The notes under the pieces: model-generated | Databases searched by the model: none | What the model was told of the DNA's origin: nothing | The model's input: only the letters and a program-made list of their open reading frames with translations | Translations under genes and position numbers: made by a program | Origin: Phycisphaera sp. | GTDB taxonomy: Bacteria > Planctomycetota > Phycisphaerae > Phycisphaerales > Phycisphaeraceae | Assembly: GCA_028285385.1 (NCBI GenBank) | Contig: JANQPR010000133.1 | Coordinates: 1-64,000 of the forward strand | Direction of reading: 5' to 3' | Length of the DNA stretch: 64,000 nt | In this document: piece by piece, positions 1 to 50,992 of the stretch | Numbering within the stretch: position 1 is the first letter of the stretch | How the letters are laid out: each line of letters starts with the position of its first letter

Positions 1-234
1 ACGGCCGAAGACCCGGTCATCGCCGCGACCACGCAGACCCTCGCCGCCTCGGCCGAGTTGGCCCGGCACGGGTTCTACGTCGAGCCTTACGCCCGGACGC
101 AGCCGGACGGCCGCCGGGTGCCAGCCGTCCGGCTGCGTCCGGGCGTAAGGCTCGACGTAGAACCCGTGCCGGACCAACTCGGCCGAGTCGGCGAGGGTCT
201 GCGTGATCGCGGCGATGACCGGTTCTTCGGCCGT
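1..234. repeat. Near-perfect inverted repeat at window start
   Basis: Bases 1-111 are the reverse complement of bases 124-234, with a 12-base centre (112-123). Four mismatches are visible, at positions 12, 29, 47 and 62; in each the left arm carries C. All four change the encoded amino acid (E/D, I/T, D/A, V/A), while the inner 49 bases are identical. The right arm continues the minus-strand gene normally, so the left arm is the copy. A foldback of this kind at a sequence edge is typical of assembly or amplification chimeras; a natural hairpin is possible but less likely. Confidence 0.85.
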
Positions 235-1890: not shown

Positions 1891-3063
1891 ATGCAGCGTA
1901 GCGACCGCCCTCACTTCTTCGACCTGACGCCGGACACGCTGCGGGAACACCTCGCTGGGCTTGGCATGCCGGCGTTCCGGACGACGCAGGTGCTCGACTG
2001 GGTCTACCGCAAGGGCGTAGCTGACCCGGCCGGCATGACGAACCTCTCTGCCCGCGACCAGGACGCCCTGGCCGAGCACGTCATGTTCCTCCGCGGGGAA
2101 ATCGTCCAACACCAACGAGCAACAGACGGCACGCAGAAGCTGCTCGTGGACTGGAGTCTGGGTGAGGACCGAGCGCCAAAGGGCGTGGGCCGAGTGGTAG
2201 GACCAGATGGTACCGCCGCCATGCGTCTCAATGTTCTGACTCAGCCCTACATCATCGACCCGAATCCTTCGCTCCAGACCGAATGCGTCATGATCCCGAC
2301 GCTCCGGCGTCGCACCGCGTGCATCAGCTCGCAGGTCGGCTGCCCGGTCGGATGTCGGTTCTGCGCCTCGGGCCTTGGCGGGCTCGACGGAAATCTTTCT
2401 CCCGGCCAGATCGCCCAGCAGGTCTGGCAGCTGTCACAGATGCTGCGTGAACAAGGCGACGAGATCGGCCGGATCACCAACGTCGTGTTCATGGGTATGG
2501 GCGAGCCACTGGCGAACCTGTCCGCCGTCATCCCAGCGCTTCGAGTTCTGACCGCCGAGTGGGGCGTGAACCTCTCGGCCCGCAAGATCACGGTCTCCAC
2601 GGTCGGCGTGGTGCCCGGCATCCGCAAGCTCGCCCAACTCGACCTGCCGATCACGCTCGCGATATCGCTGCACGCGCCCAACGACACGATCCGCCGAGAG
2701 ATCATCCCTTGGGCGAAGTTCGTGACGGTCGAAGAACTCATCGACGCCGGTCAGGACTACTTCCGGCAGACCGGCCGGGAAGTCACCCTGGAGTACATCC
2801 TGCTCGGCGGGGTCAACGACCAGCCCGAGCACGCCCGGGAGTTGGCGGCCGTCGCCCGCAAGCTGCGCGGCAACGTCAACCTCATCCGCTACAACGAGGT
2901 CAAGGGCTTGCCCTACCAACGCCCCGCGTCTGGGGACGTGCACGCGTTTCAGGAGACGCTGAAACGGGCCGGCATCAACACGCACATCCGCGCCAGCCGC
3001 GGCCGGGACATCGCCGCGGCGTGCGGCCAACTCCGCCACGAGGCCGCCAGAACCGGCGGGTAG
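1891..3063 (+). CDS. rlmN: Dual-specificity 23S rRNA/tRNA adenine-C2 methyltransferase RlmN
   Basis: A 390-residue radical-SAM enzyme. The cluster motif C-x3-C-x2-C is visible (CPVGCRFC, Cys151, Cys155, Cys158), as are the family motifs VFMGMGEP and SLHAPND and a C-terminal AAACGQL segment holding the expected catalytic cysteine. RlmN methylates A2503 of 23S rRNA and A37 of some tRNAs. The open frame extends far upstream, but the ATG at 1891 gives the normal family N-terminus; the upstream part overlaps the divergent metallopeptidase gene and is low-complexity. It is the last chromosomal-type gene before tRNA-Arg. Confidence 0.95.
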   Translation: MQRSDRPHFFDLTPDTLREHLAGLGMPAFRTTQVLDWVYRKGVADPAGMTNLSARDQDALAEHVMFLRGEIVQHQRATDGTQKLLVDWSLGEDRAPKGVGRVVGPDGTAAMRLNVLTQPYIIDPNPSLQTECVMIPTLRRRTACISSQVGCPVGCRFCASGLGGLDGNLSPGQIAQQVWQLSQMLREQGDEIGRITNVVFMGMGEPLANLSAVIPALRVLTAEWGVNLSARKITVSTVGVVPGIRKLAQLDLPITLAISLHAPNDTIRREIIPWAKFVTVEELIDAGQDYFRQTGREVTLEYILLGGVNDQPEHARELAAVARKLRGNVNLIRYNEVKGLPYQRPASGDVHAFQETLKRAGINTHIRASRGRDIAAACGQLRHEAARTGG

Positions 3064-3099
3064 CCGGCTCCCGGTTGCGATATACTCGGCGTTTCGCAA

Positions 3100-3173
3100 G
3101 ATCGCGTAGCTCAGCTGGATAGAGCGGCTGCCTCCGGAGCAGCAGGTCGCAGGTTCGAATCCTGCCGCGATCG
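3100..3173 (+). tRNA. tRNA-Arg (anticodon CCG)
   Basis: A complete 74-base cloverleaf. The 7-bp acceptor stem pairs GATCGCG with CGCGATC, the anticodon stem is GCTGC/GCAGC with loop CTCCGGA (anticodon CCG), and the T arm is GCAGG-TTCGAAT-CCTGC. The discriminator base is G; CCA is not encoded. A TATACT hexamer at 3081-3086 could be its -10 box. The 3' half (3127-3173) plus four following bases recur at 50942-50992, suggesting this gene is an integration site. Confidence 0.95.
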
Positions 3174-3256
3174 TTGGTGAATGGTGTGGAAATGTGTTGA
3201 ATCTCAAGCACTTGCGGCACGCACGCCCGATCCTCCGTGTTGGTTTGTGTTGGGTT

Positions 3257-3554
3257 CTATTGAACGATTTCCCCCGATATTGACACCACAATGCCACCAC
3301 CCGCGTCGTCTAACGCCGGCAGCTTTGACGCCGAACCGGCCAAGTCCATCAGGCGCGCGTCGTTGTAGAGGGCCAGCATCAGCCGGGTGCCCTTGAACGG
3401 GTTGTACCGCGTCAGGTCCCAGTTCGAGAACACCATTACCAGCGAGAACGGCGCCGGAAACACCTTGATTTCCGCCACGCCCAGGATGTCCGGCGACAGA
3501 AGGCCAGGCCGTCAGCAGGGCACGGCGGCGGTCGCGGGCGGCGCGTCGACTCAC
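3257..3554 (-). pseudogene. Truncated, frameshifted sugar ABC transporter permease
   Basis: The GTG at 3554 overlaps the stop of the solute-binding gene (GTGA). It encodes a typical permease start, MSRRAARDRRRALLTAWPS. Near 3500 the frame must shift by one base to continue as LSPDILGV..., then FSLVMVFSNWDLTRYNPFKG, which resembles the first transmembrane segment and loop of MalF/UgpA-type permeases. After about 60 further residues, unlike any permease, the frame stops at 3257, only 84 bases from tRNA-Arg. The remaining five or so membrane segments and the second permease are absent. Most likely the operon was cut at the island edge. Reading the fragment as permease rests on the start, position and coupling. 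Confidence 0.6.
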
Positions 3555-5095
3555 GGCAAAGACACCGCCGCGGCGCCGCCCTCGACGGCTGCGCCGGGAG
3601 TCGCTGCAGCCCCCGATAGCCGGCCGGTCCGCCGGTAGTAGGCCAGGTGGAACGGGTTCTTGATCAAACCCGCGGGGATTGACCGACCCGCGGCCTTGAG
3701 CGCATCAATCTCATGTTGAATCGCGACGTCAGCGGCGTACGCCTCGGCCAACTCAGGTTTACGACTGAGCTCGGACGCGATCTTTTCGTCGATGCGTATG
3801 ACGGTCAGCCGGGCCGCCTCCGCCGCCGTGAGTTTGCCGTTCATGAACAGTTCTTCGTAGTATCGTCGCTCCCGGTTGACCACGGTCGGCAGCACGTATG
3901 GACTCGTTACGAATCCGACCGCGATCGTCTCCGCGGCCTCGACGAACGCGCCGTGGGCCTGCCACTCGTTGGGGTAGTCGGGCGGACGCAGAAATGCCTC
4001 GGTGCGGGTAAATCGCGGGTTGGGGGGCAGCGCGTCGGCATCGGCCACGATCAAGCTGTTGTAATCATCGCTGGCGAGGTAGGCGAGAAAGAGTTTTGCC
4101 AACTCGGGGTGTCGGCTACCTGCGTAGACCACCACCCCGCGCGCCTGGATCGTCGTACAACGAAACCCGTCGTGAGGAAACTCAACCACCTTCAAGCCTC
4201 CGAGCTGCCCGAAGTGACGAAACTGAATCAACAGCCATCGCCCCCCCTCGACCATGACGTAGTTCCCGTTCGCAAAGAGTTGAGGGTTGGCCCCGCCGAA
4301 CCCCTGCTGACTCACAAAGGCAGCCCGGTCATCTGGCGTCGGCATGATGTTGATGTCATACACCCAGCGCTTCTTGGTTTCGAGCGTTTTGATGTACTTT
4401 GGGTCGTTCAGAACGCAAGCCGTGAGCGTCTCATTGAACACGGACAGGCCGGTCGTACGGTACAGCCTCTCGGCGGGGATGTCGGACGCGAGGAACCGGC
4501 GTTCGTTGGGTTGAGTGCCGGGCGGGTTGGCGGCGTCGCGGAAGGCCAGGCCAAGGGCTTCGAACTCCTCCCAAGTCCACGGTGACACGGGCGGCTCGAA
4601 ACCGAAACGCCGCAGCGCGTCGACGTTGACCCACATCATCGCGGCATCGACATTGGCCGGGTAGCGGACTTGTCGGCCGTCGATGGTGATCGAAGGCTCA
4701 ATGGCAGGGTAGGTCTGACTGGGATCGAACCCCATCGCCTTCGCGTCCTCGGTCAGGTCAACCAAGACATCCATGGCATCGAACAACCGGATCGATGCGT
4801 CGTAGGTGTCCATCAGGTCCGCTGCGACACCGGACACGCTCTGGATCAGCTGCTTGGTCCGGCCCATGTTGGCAACGTCGAGGCGAAGCTCGACGATCGG
4901 ATCGCCACTATCGTCAACGTGGCCGTTCTTTATCAGCCAAGCGTGGAATGTCTCGACCTGGAGTTCCCGCGCAGGGTTCTTCTCGGTGACCCAGTAGATC
5001 ACTGGCCGATCTGTTTGCACATCTGGGAAAGACCACCTGATCCCGACACTCGCCAGAACCAACACCAACAATAGAGTGCAAAAGAGGAGCTTCAT
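3551..5095 (-). CDS. Extracellular sugar-binding protein of an ABC transporter
   Basis: A 514-residue protein with an N-terminal hydrophobic segment (MKLLFCTLLLVLVLASVG), then a layout typical of large family-1 carbohydrate-binding proteins: YWVTEKNPARE near the start, NVDAAMMWVNVDALRRFGFEPP and PWTWEEFEALG in the middle, and GNYVMVEGGRW later. It would bind an oligosaccharide outside the cytoplasmic membrane for import. The ATG at 5095 is chosen because it starts the signal; an in-frame start at 5194 would add 33 residues ahead of it. The gene overlaps the broken permease by four bases (GTGA), so it was once the first gene of a transporter set. No intact permease or ATPase is in the window, so it may now work with a distant transporter or be left over. 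Confidence 0.85.
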   Translation of the reverse strand: MKLLFCTLLLVLVLASVGIRWSFPDVQTDRPVIYWVTEKNPARELQVETFHAWLIKNGHVDDSGDPIVELRLDVANMGRTKQLIQSVSGVAADLMDTYDASIRLFDAMDVLVDLTEDAKAMGFDPSQTYPAIEPSITIDGRQVRYPANVDAAMMWVNVDALRRFGFEPPVSPWTWEEFEALGLAFRDAANPPGTQPNERRFLASDIPAERLYRTTGLSVFNETLTACVLNDPKYIKTLETKKRWVYDINIMPTPDDRAAFVSQQGFGGANPQLFANGNYVMVEGGRWLLIQFRHFGQLGGLKVVEFPHDGFRCTTIQARGVVVYAGSRHPELAKLFLAYLASDDYNSLIVADADALPPNPRFTRTEAFLRPPDYPNEWQAHGAFVEAAETIAVGFVTSPYVLPTVVNRERRYYEELFMNGKLTAAEAARLTVIRIDEKIASELSRKPELAEAYAADVAIQHEIDALKAAGRSIPAGLIKNPFHLAYYRRTGRLSGAAATPGAAVEGGAAAVSLP

Positions 5096-11334: not shown

Positions 11335-12168
11335 TCACTGGTCGGGGATGTTGGCGGCGTCGACCTCGGCGGCAGTCCGGGCGTAACCTCGCGGGGAGTC
11401 GGATCTGTCGTTGCTGCGGAACGGCTCGACCGATGCAAACAAGTTTACGTCCGGCCCGACCACTTCCGCCCGGCCGAAGCGTCGTGCGGAGCCATCCAAA
11501 AACCCGTAGTTTGCCCCGCCGCTGTGGCGGACGTGCTCGGCCTCCAGGAGGTCGTCTCGTCGGTTCAGGTCCATGTAGTTCTGGGCCGGGCCGTCGCGCA
11601 CCTCGGACATCACGATCGTTTCGGTCGGCTGCTTGAGCAGGTCACGGGGCACGGAACGCCCGTTGATCTTGCTGACCGCCGTATCCGTCGTGCTGCTCAT
11701 GATGCCGGCCGAGAGGTAGAACGCATTGAAGCCGTTGTAGGTGTAGCTGCGCGGCAGCTTGTCGGCCTCACCGGTCGGCAGCGTGCCCGAGACCCCGGGC
11801 TCTTCTTGGGACGGGCACTGCAGGATCTCGGTCGAGCCGTAGTACTCCTCGAACGCCGTGGGCCACCGCGCGGTGTTGAAGCGCTGCCCCTCGAACTCCT
11901 CGGTCCCGTCGGCTTTGAAACCACTGAACCGCGCGATGTAGTTGCCGCCGTAATCCACCGCGTAGACCTCGTTGGCCTGAGCAAAGCTCCGCAGGTGCGT
12001 CGCGCACTTGATCGCACGGGCGGTCTCTCGCGCCGCCCCCAATGCCGGCAGTAGGATCCCTATCAGCAGCGCAATGATGCTAATCACCACAAGCAGTTCG
12101 ATCAGGGTGAAGCCTCGACTACTCGTGAGGCACGATTCACGTAGGCGGGGGTTCGGTGAGTCGTTCAT
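11335..12168 (-). CDS. Prepilin-like protein with H-x9-DG box
   Basis: A 277-residue protein with the type IV pilin/pseudopilin start [20 protein letters not shown] near residue 18, cleaved after Gly by a prepilin peptidase, then a long hydrophobic helix and [12 protein letters not shown]. Near the C-terminus [12 protein letters not shown] fits the H-x9-DG signature common in planctomycete pseudopilin-like proteins of unknown role. The ATG at 12168 leaves a short basic leader. It is followed after 89 bases by the GH4 gene and preceded by an operator-like palindrome at 12305. Expected location is the cytoplasmic membrane with the body outside. Confidence 0.88.
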
Positions 12169-12504: not shown

Positions 12505-13779
12505 TCACACGTCGCGCCGCCCACGTGACCGCAGCGCGACACCGAGCAGAGCTAGACCAGCTAGTGCGCTCGGCTCGGGAACGTTCACTCCGCTGAAGTC
12601 CGGCGCGGCGGTACTGCCCCAGTTCTGGAGCACGCCGTCGAGCTCGTTCTGGTCGACCGTGCCGTCGAACGGCCCGCCGCCGACCAGGGCGCCTTCGTCG
12701 CCGGTGAAGGTGCCGGTGCCCCAGTTCTGCAGCACGATGTCTAGGTCGCCCTGCTCCACTTGGCCGGAGGTGTCGTAGTCGCCCACTAGCGAGCCGACGC
12801 CGGCCAAAGCCGCGATGTCGGCATCGCTGAGGATGGTGCTGGCCCAGAACTTGACCTCGTCAAGCTGACCGAACGCAAAGAACGGCTCGTTGGCGTTGTT
12901 CTGCGCACCGATGTTTAGGATTTTGTTGGCGAAGTCGGCATCGTAGCCGTCAACCGAAAACGCGCTGTCAACCACGAACGTGTCAAAGAGTACGCCGTCG
13001 GCGTAGAACTTGGTCACGACGTTACCCGTGGCGTCGGGGTCCGTGCCGTCGAGCACGATCGCGACGTGGTGGTACATATCGTCGTCAGGCACGGTGTCCA
13101 GCGGCACACCGTTGTCCTGCGGGTCGGTCGTGACGGTCCGGTTGCCGATCATGCTGGTACCGTTGGTGTCGCCGAACTCGGCGCGGAGGTCACGGTTGTC
13201 GGGGTCGGCGACGGGGTGGCGAAACTCGTTGAGGAAGAACTTGAACCCATCGATCGGGAACTCGCTCCAGTTGTTCGCCAATGACATCAGGCGCCCGCTG
13301 CTGTTGTTGCTTGGGTTGGGGTTTCGCCCGTTGCTGGCCGACTGGTTCGGATTCGTCCCCAGCTTGACCCAGGCGGAGAAGGTGAACTGCTGCCCGAGAT
13401 CGAACGCGGGGATGACCATGGGCCCGCCAAGCGTGCCGATGTCCTCCGCCCCTGGGGCGGTGTCGGTGAAGTTCGTCGGCTGGAAAGCGCCGACTCCGGC
13501 GAAGGCGTCTGTGCTGATGGTCGGGCTGAACGCCGACGGCCCAGCGAAGTTCACGCCGGTGGTGCGGTTGAGCACGCCGCTGCGGTCCAGGGTGGTCAGC
13601 ACGCCGTCGAAGGCGTTGCCCGCCGAACCGACGTTGGCCACCGTGGTGCCAGACACGTTGCCGGGCTCGAAGTCGTAGTACAGATCCGGCACGGGCTGTG
13701 CGGAGACGGCTCCGGCCACGCAGACCACGGGAGCGATCGACAGCATGAGCCGAGGACAGCGTTGAGAAGACATCAGCAT
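12505..13779 (-). CDS. PEP-CTERM surface protein with LamG-like domain and dockerin-like module
   Basis: A 424-residue exported protein. A signal peptide (VVCVAGAVSAQP) is followed by a LamG/concanavalin-like domain (about 30-310: YYDFEPGN, FTFSAWVKLG, YHHVAIVLDG, FGQLDEVKFW). Next come two short Ca-loop-like repeats, DYDTSGQVEQGDLDIVLQNW and FDGTVDQNELDGVLQNW, and a terminal VPEPSALAGLALLG plus Arg-rich tail, the PEP-CTERM sorting signal recognised by exosortase. AGGAGG nine bases upstream fixes the ATG at 13779. The carboxyl third is nearly identical to that of the protein at 19301-20563. Likely anchored at the surface to bind glycan or partner proteins; no catalytic motif is seen. Confidence 0.88.
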   Translation of the reverse strand: MLMSSQRCPRLMLSIAPVVCVAGAVSAQPVPDLYYDFEPGNVSGTTVANVGSAGNAFDGVLTTLDRSGVLNRTTGVNFAGPSAFSPTISTDAFAGVGAFQPTNFTDTAPGAEDIGTLGGPMVIPAFDLGQQFTFSAWVKLGTNPNQSASNGRNPNPSNNSSGRLMSLANNWSEFPIDGFKFFLNEFRHPVADPDNRDLRAEFGDTNGTSMIGNRTVTTDPQDNGVPLDTVPDDDMYHHVAIVLDGTDPDATGNVVTKFYADGVLFDTFVVDSAFSVDGYDADFANKILNIGAQNNANEPFFAFGQLDEVKFWASTILSDADIAALAGVGSLVGDYDTSGQVEQGDLDIVLQNWGTGTFTGDEGALVGGGPFDGTVDQNELDGVLQNWGSTAAPDFSGVNVPEPSALAGLALLGVALRSRGRRDV

Positions 13780-19300: not shown

Positions 19301-20563
19301 ATGACCGTTTTCCGTCCCGTGCCTTATGCCGGTTGCGCGACGCTCGTGATCGGAGCCATTGGCCCGGCGTCGGCGACCGTCGCCGACCTGCGCAGTGCCG
19401 CCCAGGCCAACACCAATCTGCTCTACCAGTACACCTTTGAGGGCGACAGCACCCAACGGCTGCTCGACTCCGGCAACGCTGGCGAGGCTCGCCACTTGAC
19501 CGAAGAAGCCGGACGCAACGGCGGCAACACCGCCAACCTCGCGTTCCCCCAAGGCTTCGACCCCACAACCACCGCATTCCGCCCCGAATGGATCAGCGAG
19601 ACCCAAGGGGCGGCGCTGCGGGCCAACGACGACTCGAACACCGCCGACGACGACCTGCTGATCCCCGGGGCGCTGACCGTGGAGTTCCTGTTCACCGTCG
19701 ACTCGGCCTCTCCCAACTACAGCGAACCGTTAGAAGACGACTACAACCACGCGGTCAACACCCGCATCTGGCCTCTGCGGCGAGGCTATTACCTGATGCA
19801 AGACCCCGACGGCAACCTGATCACGAACATTGGGCGACGATTCAGTTCGCTCAACCAACGAACCATCGTCGACGCCGCCGCGATCAACCCGGGCAACTGG
19901 TACTACTACGCGATCACACTCGAAGCCGCCGACTTCGACAACGTCGACGCCATCCCCGACACCGACCCCGGTGCCGTATCCACCGGCAGCGACACCACAG
20001 TGAACGCTTACATCGCCGACCTGACCGCCGGCGATACCGTCCTTACGCAGGTAATCACCGACGAGGTCTTTGCCGGCGGCTTCGCGGGGCCGAAGAACTC
20101 CGTCTCGTCGGGCAACATCGGGATCGGCATGTTCGAGGAGAGCGAAGAGAACAGCCCCGGCGGCGGCGACAAGCAGTTCTGGGACGGCTCCCTCGATGAA
20201 GTCTCGTTGTACGGCGAGGCTTTATCTGCGGTTCAACTGCAGGCTCAACTCGACGCCCTGCTGAGCGTCGGAAACGGTGTCATCACCGGCGACTACGACA
20301 CGTCGGGCCAAGTCGAACAGGGCGACCTCGACATCGTCCTCCAGAACTGGGGCACCGACACCTTCACCGGCGACGAAGACGCCCTCGTCGGCGGCGGGCC
20401 GTTCGACGGTACGGTCGACCAGAACGAGCTCGACGGCGTACTCCAGAACTGGGGCTCGACCAGTGCCCCGAACTTTGCCGGCAGCAACGTCCCCGAACCC
20501 GTTTCCGTCGCCCTGCTGGGCGTCTCGGGGCTGATGCTCTGCCGCCGTCGGGCCACCGCCTGA
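19301..20563 (+). CDS. PEP-CTERM surface protein with LamG-like domain and dockerin-like module (paralogue)
   Basis: A 420-residue exported protein: signal peptide (about 1-26), LamG-like domain (LLYQYTFEGDS, LTVEFLFTVDS, WYYYAITLEA, DGSLDEVSLYGEAL), two Ca-loop-like repeats (DYDTSGQVEQGDLDIVLQNW, FDGTVDQNELDGVLQNW), and VPEPVSVALLGVSGLML with an RRR tail, the PEP-CTERM signal. GAGGAG 9 bases before the ATG supports the start. The last 90 or so residues almost match those of 12505-13779, although the LamG parts are only distantly related, so the module was duplicated or exchanged. It follows the sulfatase on the same strand and probably tethers or captures glycan at the cell surface. Confidence 0.88.
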   Translation: MTVFRPVPYAGCATLVIGAIGPASATVADLRSAAQANTNLLYQYTFEGDSTQRLLDSGNAGEARHLTEEAGRNGGNTANLAFPQGFDPTTTAFRPEWISETQGAALRANDDSNTADDDLLIPGALTVEFLFTVDSASPNYSEPLEDDYNHAVNTRIWPLRRGYYLMQDPDGNLITNIGRRFSSLNQRTIVDAAAINPGNWYYYAITLEAADFDNVDAIPDTDPGAVSTGSDTTVNAYIADLTAGDTVLTQVITDEVFAGGFAGPKNSVSSGNIGIGMFEESEENSPGGGDKQFWDGSLDEVSLYGEALSAVQLQAQLDALLSVGNGVITGDYDTSGQVEQGDLDIVLQNWGTDTFTGDEDALVGGGPFDGTVDQNELDGVLQNWGSTSAPNFAGSNVPEPVSVALLGVSGLMLCRRRATA

Positions 20564-37935: not shown

Positions 37936-38853
37936 TCAGTCGTTCGGGTCGATCGTCCACCGGCCGCCGGAGTCGGAGTATGGGCCGTCCGGGTCCGCTA
38001 AATCCTCGGGTGACTCGAAGGCCGGGGTGCGCGGAATGCCGTTCTGAGACACCGTGTCGACGGGGCTGAGAAACTCCACGTGCCCGTCGACGTGGAGGAA
38101 GTTGTTCCGACCGCCGTGCAGGATGGTCGAGTCGTTGACGAAGGCCGTGTTCGCTTGAGACCCCAGCCGACGCGCGGCCGAGACCGAGGAAGAGTCGGGC
38201 ATCCCCAAACCGCGCCGCTTATTGTTGTCGTTCTCGACCGTCGGACGCTCGACCATCAGCAGCGTGCCGGACGCATTGGGGATGAAGTCAGCGGCCACAC
38301 CCACGGGCTCGTTGGGCGTGTTGCGAGAGTACGTCCCCATCGCACCGAGAACCCTCCCGCCCTGAATGAAGGGCTTGCCGCCGTCAACGCCGTCCCGCGG
38401 GTTGAGCGTGCGTGGCATCTTGTAGGTGCGTCCGTTGCCGGCCTCGTCTTCGTCGCTGGGGCACAGGACGATGTTGGTCCCTCCCCAAGCATCAAGCACT
38501 TCCTGCTTCTCGGCGTCGGTCGCCGCGTTGCCCGCGCCATACGCGATCTGGTCCCTCGTGAGCCGAACGCCGAAGTAGTCCGCCAACAGGTCGTCGAACA
38601 CAATACCGCCCGCCTCCCAAGCGCAATAGGCGTACTCGCCCCCGTTATCGACCGAGTAGGCCGTGAACGAGACACCGAACTGCCGTTGGTTGCTGCCGCA
38701 CTTGATCTGTCGAGCAGTGGCCCGTGCGGCACCCAACGCTGGCAGCAAGATGCCGATCAGCAGCGCGATGATGGAGATCACCACGAGCAGCTCAATCAAG
38801 GTAAAGGCCACCCGAACGTTGCGGGGGCCAGCGGGAGATTCGAGGTGGTTCAT
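37936..38853 (-). CDS. Prepilin-like protein with H-x9-DG box
   Basis: A 305-residue pseudopilin-like protein: [20 protein letters not shown] near residue 16 with the peptidase and methylation site, [19 protein letters not shown], a CPSDED segment, and H-GGRNNFLHV-DG near residue 262. A long C-terminal tail (DTVSQNG ... GGRWTIDPND) resembles the end of the protein at 44380, its close paralogue (FGVxLxRD, DAWGGxNI, CPSDE, RTYxMPR in common). AGAGGT precedes the ATG at 38853. It ends 121 bases from the regulator's stop, convergent with it. Confidence 0.88.
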   Translation of the reverse strand: MNHLESPAGPRNVRVAFTLIELLVVISIIALLIGILLPALGAARATARQIKCGSNQRQFGVSFTAYSVDNGGEYAYCAWEAGGIVFDDLLADYFGVRLTRDQIAYGAGNAATDAEKQEVLDAWGGTNIVLCPSDEDEAGNGRTYKMPRTLNPRDGVDGGKPFIQGGRVLGAMGTYSRNTPNEPVGVAADFIPNASGTLLMVERPTVENDNNKRRGLGMPDSSSVSAARRLGSQANTAFVNDSTILHGGRNNFLHVDGHVEFLSPVDTVSQNGIPRTPAFESPEDLADPDGPYSDSGGRWTIDPND

Positions 38854-44379: not shown

Positions 44380-45300
44380 TCAATCTCCACCTTCTACACT
44401 CCAACGCCCACGGACATCGATTAAGTCCAGGTCGAAGTCAACCAACTGGGCAGGCGTCAGCCCTTGAGGATGATCTTGACTAACCGTGTCGATCGGTTCC
44501 AGCAACTCCACGTGACCGTCCCCATGGGTGTACTGGTACTTCCCACCGTGAAGAAAACCGGAGTACTGCCCGTACCCATCTTCGGCCTTAGCGTTCTGCC
44601 GCGCCGGCCGGGTGACGGTCGCACTGCGTGGGATACCGAGGCCACGCCGATTGCTGTCGTTCTCGTTCGTGATCATCTCGGTCAGAACCAAAGTGCCGGA
44701 CGCGTCGGTCATCCAGTCCAATCTCGCATGGTCCGGCGGCGGCGTGGTCGGGCCGCTCGCCGCCCACCCCGTGTCCTGTCGCCGGGTACCGACCCCACCG
44801 ATGAGCCTGCCGCTACTGTCCTTGAAGACCCCGCCCGCTTGCGGGTCCGAGGTGCGGAACTGGTTGGGGCCGCGAGGCATTCGGTACGTCCGGTCGGTAC
44901 GGTCGTCCGGTTCATCGCTGGGACAGAAAATGATGTTGACCCCGCCCCAAGCATCAATGATCTCGTCACGGCGTGAATCCCCCGCGTCCATCAAATCCCG
45001 GCTGAGTTGCACCCCAAAGTATTCGGCGACCAGGTCGTCCCAAGAACGGCCTTCCGACTGCCCCCACTCCCCGTAGGGGAGAAGGTCTTGGTGGTCCGTC
45101 GCGTAGGACACAAACGCGATGCCGTTCTGTCGATGGTTCGAGCCGCAAGCAATCTGCCGAGCGGTCGCCCGCGCCGCGCCCAGAGCAGGTAGGAGGACTC
45201 CAATCAGCAGCGCAATAATCGAAATCACCACAAGCAGTTCGATAAGCGTGAATGCCGTCCGGACTTCATCGTTCACGGAGGATGTGTGCTTGAGAGACAT
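44380..45300 (-). CDS. Prepilin-like protein with H-x9-DG box
   Basis: A 306-residue pseudopilin-like protein: [20 protein letters not shown] near residue 16, [27 protein letters not shown], and H-GGKYQYTHG-DG near residue 265, ending GRWSVEGGD. It is a clear paralogue of the protein at 37936-38853. It sits between the second CE15-like esterase (54 bases upstream) and the sulfatase. The start at 45300 gives a short leader; the upstream in-frame start is less likely. Confidence 0.88.
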   Translation of the reverse strand: MSLKHTSSVNDEVRTAFTLIELLVVISIIALLIGVLLPALGAARATARQIACGSNHRQNGIAFVSYATDHQDLLPYGEWGQSEGRSWDDLVAEYFGVQLSRDLMDAGDSRRDEIIDAWGGVNIIFCPSDEPDDRTDRTYRMPRGPNQFRTSDPQAGGVFKDSSGRLIGGVGTRRQDTGWAASGPTTPPPDHARLDWMTDASGTLVLTEMITNENDSNRRGLGIPRSATVTRPARQNAKAEDGYGQYSGFLHGGKYQYTHGDGHVELLEPIDTVSQDHPQGLTPAQLVDFDLDLIDVRGRWSVEGGD

Positions 45301-50941: not shown

Positions 50942-50992
50942 GCTGCCTCCGGAGCCGTAGGTTGCAGGTTCGAATCCAGCTGCGGTCGTTGG
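50942..50992 (+). repeat. Decayed 3' half of tRNA-Arg(CCG), att-like
   Basis: Aligns without gaps to 3127-3177, from the anticodon stem to four bases beyond the tRNA (45 of 51 identical; differences at repeat positions 15, 17, 22, 37, 40 and 44). The anticodon loop CTCCGGA and GCAGGTTCGAATCC are intact, but the T stem and anticodon stem each have a mispair, and the upstream bases show no trace of the 5' half. This is what an integration event leaves at the far end of an island. Confidence 0.75.

Follow-up and report, generated by a model that had tools for sequence, protein, structure and literature searches.

A fused permease start and integrase tail beside tRNA-Arg(CCG) at the edge of a tRNA-associated island in Phycisphaera sp.

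Why does a transporter operon break off directly after its solute-binding protein (SBP) gene, beside a tRNA gene? The locus lies in the window analyzed here, which covers the opening 64 kb of the 71,518-bp contig C24 in a draft genome of Phycisphaera sp. (G000; 264 contigs, 4.42 Mb). An earlier note, made from the sequence alone, described a permease start coupled to the SBP gene, a frameshift near 3500, an early loss of permease similarity and an end beside the tRNA, and concluded that the operon had been cut at the boundary defined by the tRNA repeat. In this study, the first observation stands, and its interpretation is most likely to be corrected to a deletion inside the island that also took most of the integrase. 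As judged by titles and the beginnings of abstracts, no paper bearing on this locus was found; the main text of PMC11131199 makes no use of the term "genomic island". The features discussed below are as follows (window positions).

3100–3173, plus strand: tRNA-Arg(CCG), left edge of the island (ARAGORN)
3127–3177, plus strand: left att-like direct repeat, the 3′ part of tRNA-Arg plus GTTGG
3175–3204, plus strand: first triplet of decayed 10-bp repeats (TGTTGAATCN type), with a better-preserved counterpart on contig C146 (locus L047)
3204–3373, minus strand: 3′ end of a tyrosine-recombinase gene (LALYNDARLMDLAGSASKLPAL...), recognized by its match to C146, by profile A2 and by the tails of full-length PF00589 integrases
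3205–3237, plus strand: 33-bp spacer, 31/33 bases identical to C146
3238–3267, plus strand: second triplet of decayed 10-bp repeats, laid out as in C146
3371–3379, no strand: junction of the integrase tail with the permease start
3379–3554, minus strand: start of a MalF-type permease gene (first ~58 codons), a pseudogene fragment with two one-base losses, matched to contig C70
3551–5095, minus strand: SBP gene (SBP_bac_8/SBP_bac_1 by Pfam), 514 aa if the start is MKLLF; aligned relatives place the start probably here rather than at the listed 5194
50942–50992, plus strand: right att-like copy, a decayed 3′ part of tRNA-Arg

The permease fragment, its intact paralogue and the SBP

An own-genome DNA search with window 3060–3620 as the query (40 of 127 candidates scored) returned two strong matches besides the locus itself and tRNA genes, one on C70 and one on C146. 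The C70 match concerns the operon. The GTGA at 3554–3551 on the minus strand is the overlap of the SBP stop with the permease start, a GTG at 3554, and the same coupling occurs in the C70 operon (locus L048), where the SBP occupies L048:9356–10906 and MalF L048:7866–9359. The C70 operon is intact: SBP, MalF (497 residues) and MalG (424 residues), with PF00528 in both permeases, are followed by an alpha-L-fucosidase gene. We take this SBP-MalF-MalG sugar importer to be of the CUT1 class. The window copy shares with it the GTGA coupling to MalF and an SBP identity of 66–68%. In contrast, MalF is nearly gone and MalG missing altogether from the window copy, whereas C70 continues into MalG and the fucosidase gene.

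Window 3379–3604 is 83% identical at the DNA level to C70:57181–57408, and the encoded fragment is 69% identical to MalF residues 19–60, a level that within the genome only C70 itself surpasses. At two places around 3502–3513, one base is missing from the window relative to C70, which switches the frame. Permease similarity stops at about 3379. The GTGA coupling, the frameshift (by comparison with a homologue), the early loss of similarity, the kinship to permeases and a truncation near the left edge of the island are thus all borne out. The supposed end of the permease beside the tRNA holds for the open frame, as the unshifted frame 3204–3554 stops 30 bp short of the tRNA (the shifted one stops at 3257), but not for the permease, whose similarity gives way to an integrase tail. 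The fused frame has no Pfam match at all, and no hit to the BPD_transp_1 (PF00528) transmembrane domain is present anywhere on C24. The window copy is a fragment, not a permease.

With 26 of 26 candidates scored, the search for the missing permease elsewhere, which the earlier note had proposed, led to no copy of the lost MalF in the assembly other than the intact C70 gene. The other assembly matches to MalF, beyond C70 and the window fragment, are 26–40% identical, and we read them as other permeases. The SBP is an orphan in the sense that no permease lies beside it, but the genome holds a complete paralogous operon whose permeases might stand in.

The fragment is closer to C70 at silent sites than the SBP is. 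At third codon positions it differs from C70 at 9/57 sites, compared with 247/516 for the SBP (Fisher p 2e-6) and 17/52 for the nearest SBP stretch (p 0.045). No unusual similarity to C70 at third positions is seen in the opening MalF codons of nine relatives, and the codon-position patterns of fragment and SBP do not differ significantly (Fisher p 0.65), on too few sites. A simple shared history with C70 does not explain the lower third-position divergence of the fragment; gene conversion between the window and C70 operons before the deletion possibly lies behind it.

The window SBP itself is conserved. An alignment of 11 SBPs has 79 columns that do not vary among nine relatives; of these, the window SBP departs at 3 (keeping 76/79) and the C70 SBP at 1. 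Over the 181 columns identical in at least seven of the nine relatives, the window SBP differs at 26 and the C70 SBP at 30, and lineage-only changes number 16 and 21, respectively. The window SBP accordingly does not decay faster than the C70 SBP. The two proteins are related by pN 0.218 and pS 0.588 (dN/dS about 0.22). These comparisons give no sign of relaxed selection on the window SBP, as an average over a long time within which the permease loss may be recent.

To place this arrangement among relatives, we used an alignment-based scan, which gave 26 SBP-relative loci; a contig scan with a single protein found none. MalF directly follows the SBP in 24 of these 26 named loci, the exceptions being L126 (a second SBP in between) and L132 (no MalF within 4 kb). 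Similarly, of 20 whole-genome loci, the C70 operon of G000 among them, 17 have MalF directly after the SBP; in L005 MalF lies on the other side, in L011 a second SBP comes next, and in L021 none is present in the flank viewed. The two sets share some genomes. Since L132 and L021 also have no adjacent permease, the window is not the sole case.

The sequence between the break and the tRNA

The sequence past the break, which the earlier note had overlooked, is not featureless; it is the 3′ end of an integrase gene. Window 3107–3370 is 82% identical at the DNA level to C146:20859–21122. The C146 match adjoins tRNA-Ala(TGC) and encodes MLHSDPKLTSRLYNDARLMDLAGAASKLPALGDAGGG onward to a stop, for which the window counterpart is LALYNDARLMDLAGSASKLPALDDAGGG; the two peptides are 74% identical (1.9e-12). 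The C146 frame is open to L047:9526, equivalent to window 3204. In the window, one base is missing near 3273 relative to C146, and the frame starting in the tail consequently stops at 3257. The unshifted frame 3204–3554 terminates in QHGGSGVRAASA, where C146 has QHGGSGVRAVSA.

The C146 peptide has matches with E of 0.001 or lower in 6 of 51 family genomes, two of them in G000 and one in each of five others. The five matches outside G000 lie within frames of 434–686 residues, each with a tRNA in the flank, and the four of these full-length bearers that were scanned with Pfam (all except L068) are PF00589 integrases. We built a profile, A2, from seven integrase-tail rows, in which Y, D, L and L are invariant; the Y is presumably the catalytic (active-site) tyrosine. 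A2 matches the window tail at 3.4e-11, with the window row itself part of the profile, and has matches in 109 of 301 genomes of the order. The resulting set of tail loci, 30 listed and the window's own, takes in both remnants of G000 and the genomes from which the profile was built and is thus not independent. With a view of at most 1.5 kb beyond the match, a tRNA is seen at 15 of these 31 loci, and the integrase frame converges on it in all 15, within 380 bp in nine and at 1.1–1.8 kb in six; no tRNA is in view at the other 16. The end of the A2 match lies 119 bp from the tRNA in the window and 120 bp in C146. Collectively, because the C146 and profile matches sit in PF00589 integrases and the frames converge on tRNA genes, we read 3204–3373 as an integrase 3′ end, most likely that of the island's own integrase. 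We also considered random post-frameshift sequence between the break and the tRNA, which is ruled out by the matches to C146 and to integrase tails.

C24 has no PF00589 match, and the four PF00589 hits of G000 are all on other contigs. No intact integrase with this tail was found in G000: scoring 10 of 10 candidates for the C146 peptide and 25 of 46 for the profile gave only the remnants on C24 and C146. Other genomes also have short frames with the integrase tail, for example of 56–70 residues, so such decay is not unusual in integrases of this type. Elsewhere, G031, G072 and G073 carry 18, 9 and 12 profile matches, many in full-length frames, an expanded integrase family. A PF00589 frame of G000 with one internal TAA, near tRNA-Leu(GAG) (L053, C71:12713–13156), is possibly a further decayed element.

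The second integrase tail of G000, at L047:9326–9557 on C146, adjoins its tRNA-Ala(TGC) together with two triplets of 10-bp repeats and is another fossil island edge. The window resembles it in having an integrase tail, a 33-bp spacer and two repeat triplets at the 3′ end of a tRNA. In contrast, C146 is at a different tRNA, keeps about 9–10 more integrase codons and is joined to non-permease DNA. In C146 the triplets flank the spacer; four of their units contain TGTTGAATC exactly and two are divergent, and these four are the only exact copies of this 9-mer in the 13.5-kb C146 stretch. The window has an exact copy at 3195 and one further copy at 3714. The observed periodicity score was reached by single-base shuffles in 2/300 cases for the window and 0/300 for C146. 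For seven full-length relatives, the counts were 0/300 each in L080, L101 and L102 and 16, 37, 101 and 147 of 300 in the other four. By analogy with other elements, from which we draw this reading as an assumption, the repeats are possibly arm-type integrase sites. It is also conceivable, and in our judgment very improbable, that the ~200-bp cassette of tail, two repeat triplets and spacer persists at two tRNA genes by working in trans as a docking site for the integrase of another element; if so, an integrase-less island could be mobilised or replaced.

The island and its edges

Genomic islands integrated at tRNA genes and carrying a degenerate tyrosine integrase are an established concept. 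The window resembles them in having a tRNA at one end, a partial tRNA repeat at the other, an integrase gene adjoining the tRNA and pointing at it, and different DNA in the slot of a congener. It differs in that the 3′ end of the integrase alone is left, fused to a broken transporter gene. The att-like repeat pair spans 51 bp at 88% identity (E 4.9e-14 within the window), and the identity of the tRNA region between G001, of the same genus, and the window ends at 3177, the same base as the repeat. In G001, a single contig carries rlmN, tRNA-Arg(CCG), ~14.5 kb of other DNA and then orthologues of the window sigma factor (87%), SulP transporter (68–69%) and two further window genes. The slot (L061/L070, G001:C64, about 55.5–70 kb) includes a 2,953-codon frame, and its frames match no island frames except for short stretches of Laminin_G-type proteins.

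The left flank varies: the tRNA directly follows rlmN in G012 and G004 as well, but the gap is ~2.9 kb in G001 and ~2.5 kb in G019, where the tRNA is also inverted. The right edge is not confirmed by synteny, because the DsbD/redoxin region (51.1–54.1 kb) has no match in the G001 slot. DsbD was dropped as a right-flank marker, its G001 match being 32% identical and on another contig, and the sigma factor and SulP were used instead. Collectively, the tRNA-half repeats and the different DNA in the congeneric slot support a tRNA-associated island with an uncertain right edge.

Between 3.5 and 50 kb, a Pfam scan of the 30 larger frames found six sulfatases, a GH4 enzyme and two glucuronyl-esterase-like proteins, and none of these 30 frames belongs to an integrase family. 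Judging by these sulfatases and the C70 alpha-L-fucosidase, the SBP ligand might, as a guess, be a fucosylated or sulfated oligosaccharide. Three related stretches of ~105 bp (75–80%; 12003–12114, 38697–38809 and 45152–45256) lie near the starts of N_methyl or DUF1559 genes, and a 168-bp inverted repeat (12616–12783 and 20288–20455, 93%) lies in two opposite-strand Laminin_G_3 genes. The contig opens with an inverted repeat (window 1–234, 93% over 236 bp), probably an assembly hairpin, and the frame reading into it is unreliable there.

Origin of the junction

The C146 match reaches 3370, and the C70 match starts at 3379. Against C146, 72/78 bases are identical at 3293–3370 compared with 16/30 at 3371–3400, and about 9 bp at the junction are assignable to neither parent. 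Both fragments read toward the tRNA, and this orientation is what an internal deletion between them would leave. We consider it likely that one internal deletion removed both permeases and most of the island's integrase, leaving the scar. An ancestral island at tRNA-Arg(CCG) would have carried the SBP-MalF-MalG operon and then the tyrosine integrase on one strand, reading toward the tRNA. The deletion would have fused malF codon ~58 to the integrase gene ~55 codons ahead of its stop (counted in the C146 frame), with the joint lying about 200 bp in from the left att site; the remainder of malF, the whole of malG and the bulk of the integrase gene would have gone. From the sizes of the relatives' genes, we infer a loss of about 4 kb at least. 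Loss of the integrase would have fixed the island in place, and the one-base losses in the remnants would have followed the deletion. The SBP would have remained subject to purifying selection; that it now serves the paralogous C70 permeases is a guess. The single deletion is not proven, since no ancestral island holding intact permeases together with an intact integrase came to light.

Other histories were weighed against this one. The proposal of a cut through the operon exactly at the att/tRNA boundary draws on the closeness of the break, ~200 bp from the tRNA repeat; yet the repeat ends at 3177, the cut lies at ~3371–3379, and most of the sequence between them is the tyrosine-recombinase tail with its adjoining repeats. 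We regard it as hardly tenable. Since the integrase tail lies between the repeat and the cut, the truncation of the operon most likely happened within the island and took in the integrase as well, rather than falling at the tRNA.

Two separate events could also have produced the junction, an older element leaving its integrase tail at the tRNA and illegitimate recombination later joining the SBP and the ~58-codon permease segment to it. C146 is indeed a case of an integrase tail that lies at a tRNA and continues into other DNA, with no SBP or permease match in its 13.5 kb by sequence matching, and the silent divergence of the permease fragment is unlike that of the SBP. However, tail and operon share the orientation that one deletion would leave, and att-like repeats bracket the whole segment; two events are the strongest of the alternatives, and still unlikely. 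A chimeric join or base errors in the draft contig would find some support in the 264 contigs of the assembly and in the resemblance of the first 234 bp to a contig-end artefact. However, the junction is 3.4 kb away from the contig start, its halves share no more than 82–83% identity with C146 and C70, so that it is not a join of those two contigs, and rlmN and the SBP gene flanking it are open frames. An assembly artefact is accordingly very unlikely.

With a single internal deletion as the preferred reading, the scar is an ordinary form of island decay and fixation. For annotation, the open frames 3257–3478 and 3204–3554 are fusions of two gene fragments, not genes. The locus offers a base-resolution case in which a single deletion can fix an acquired island in place and knock out a transporter at the same time. 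Moreover, it poses a natural test of whether an SBP without its permeases is kept by serving a paralogous transporter.
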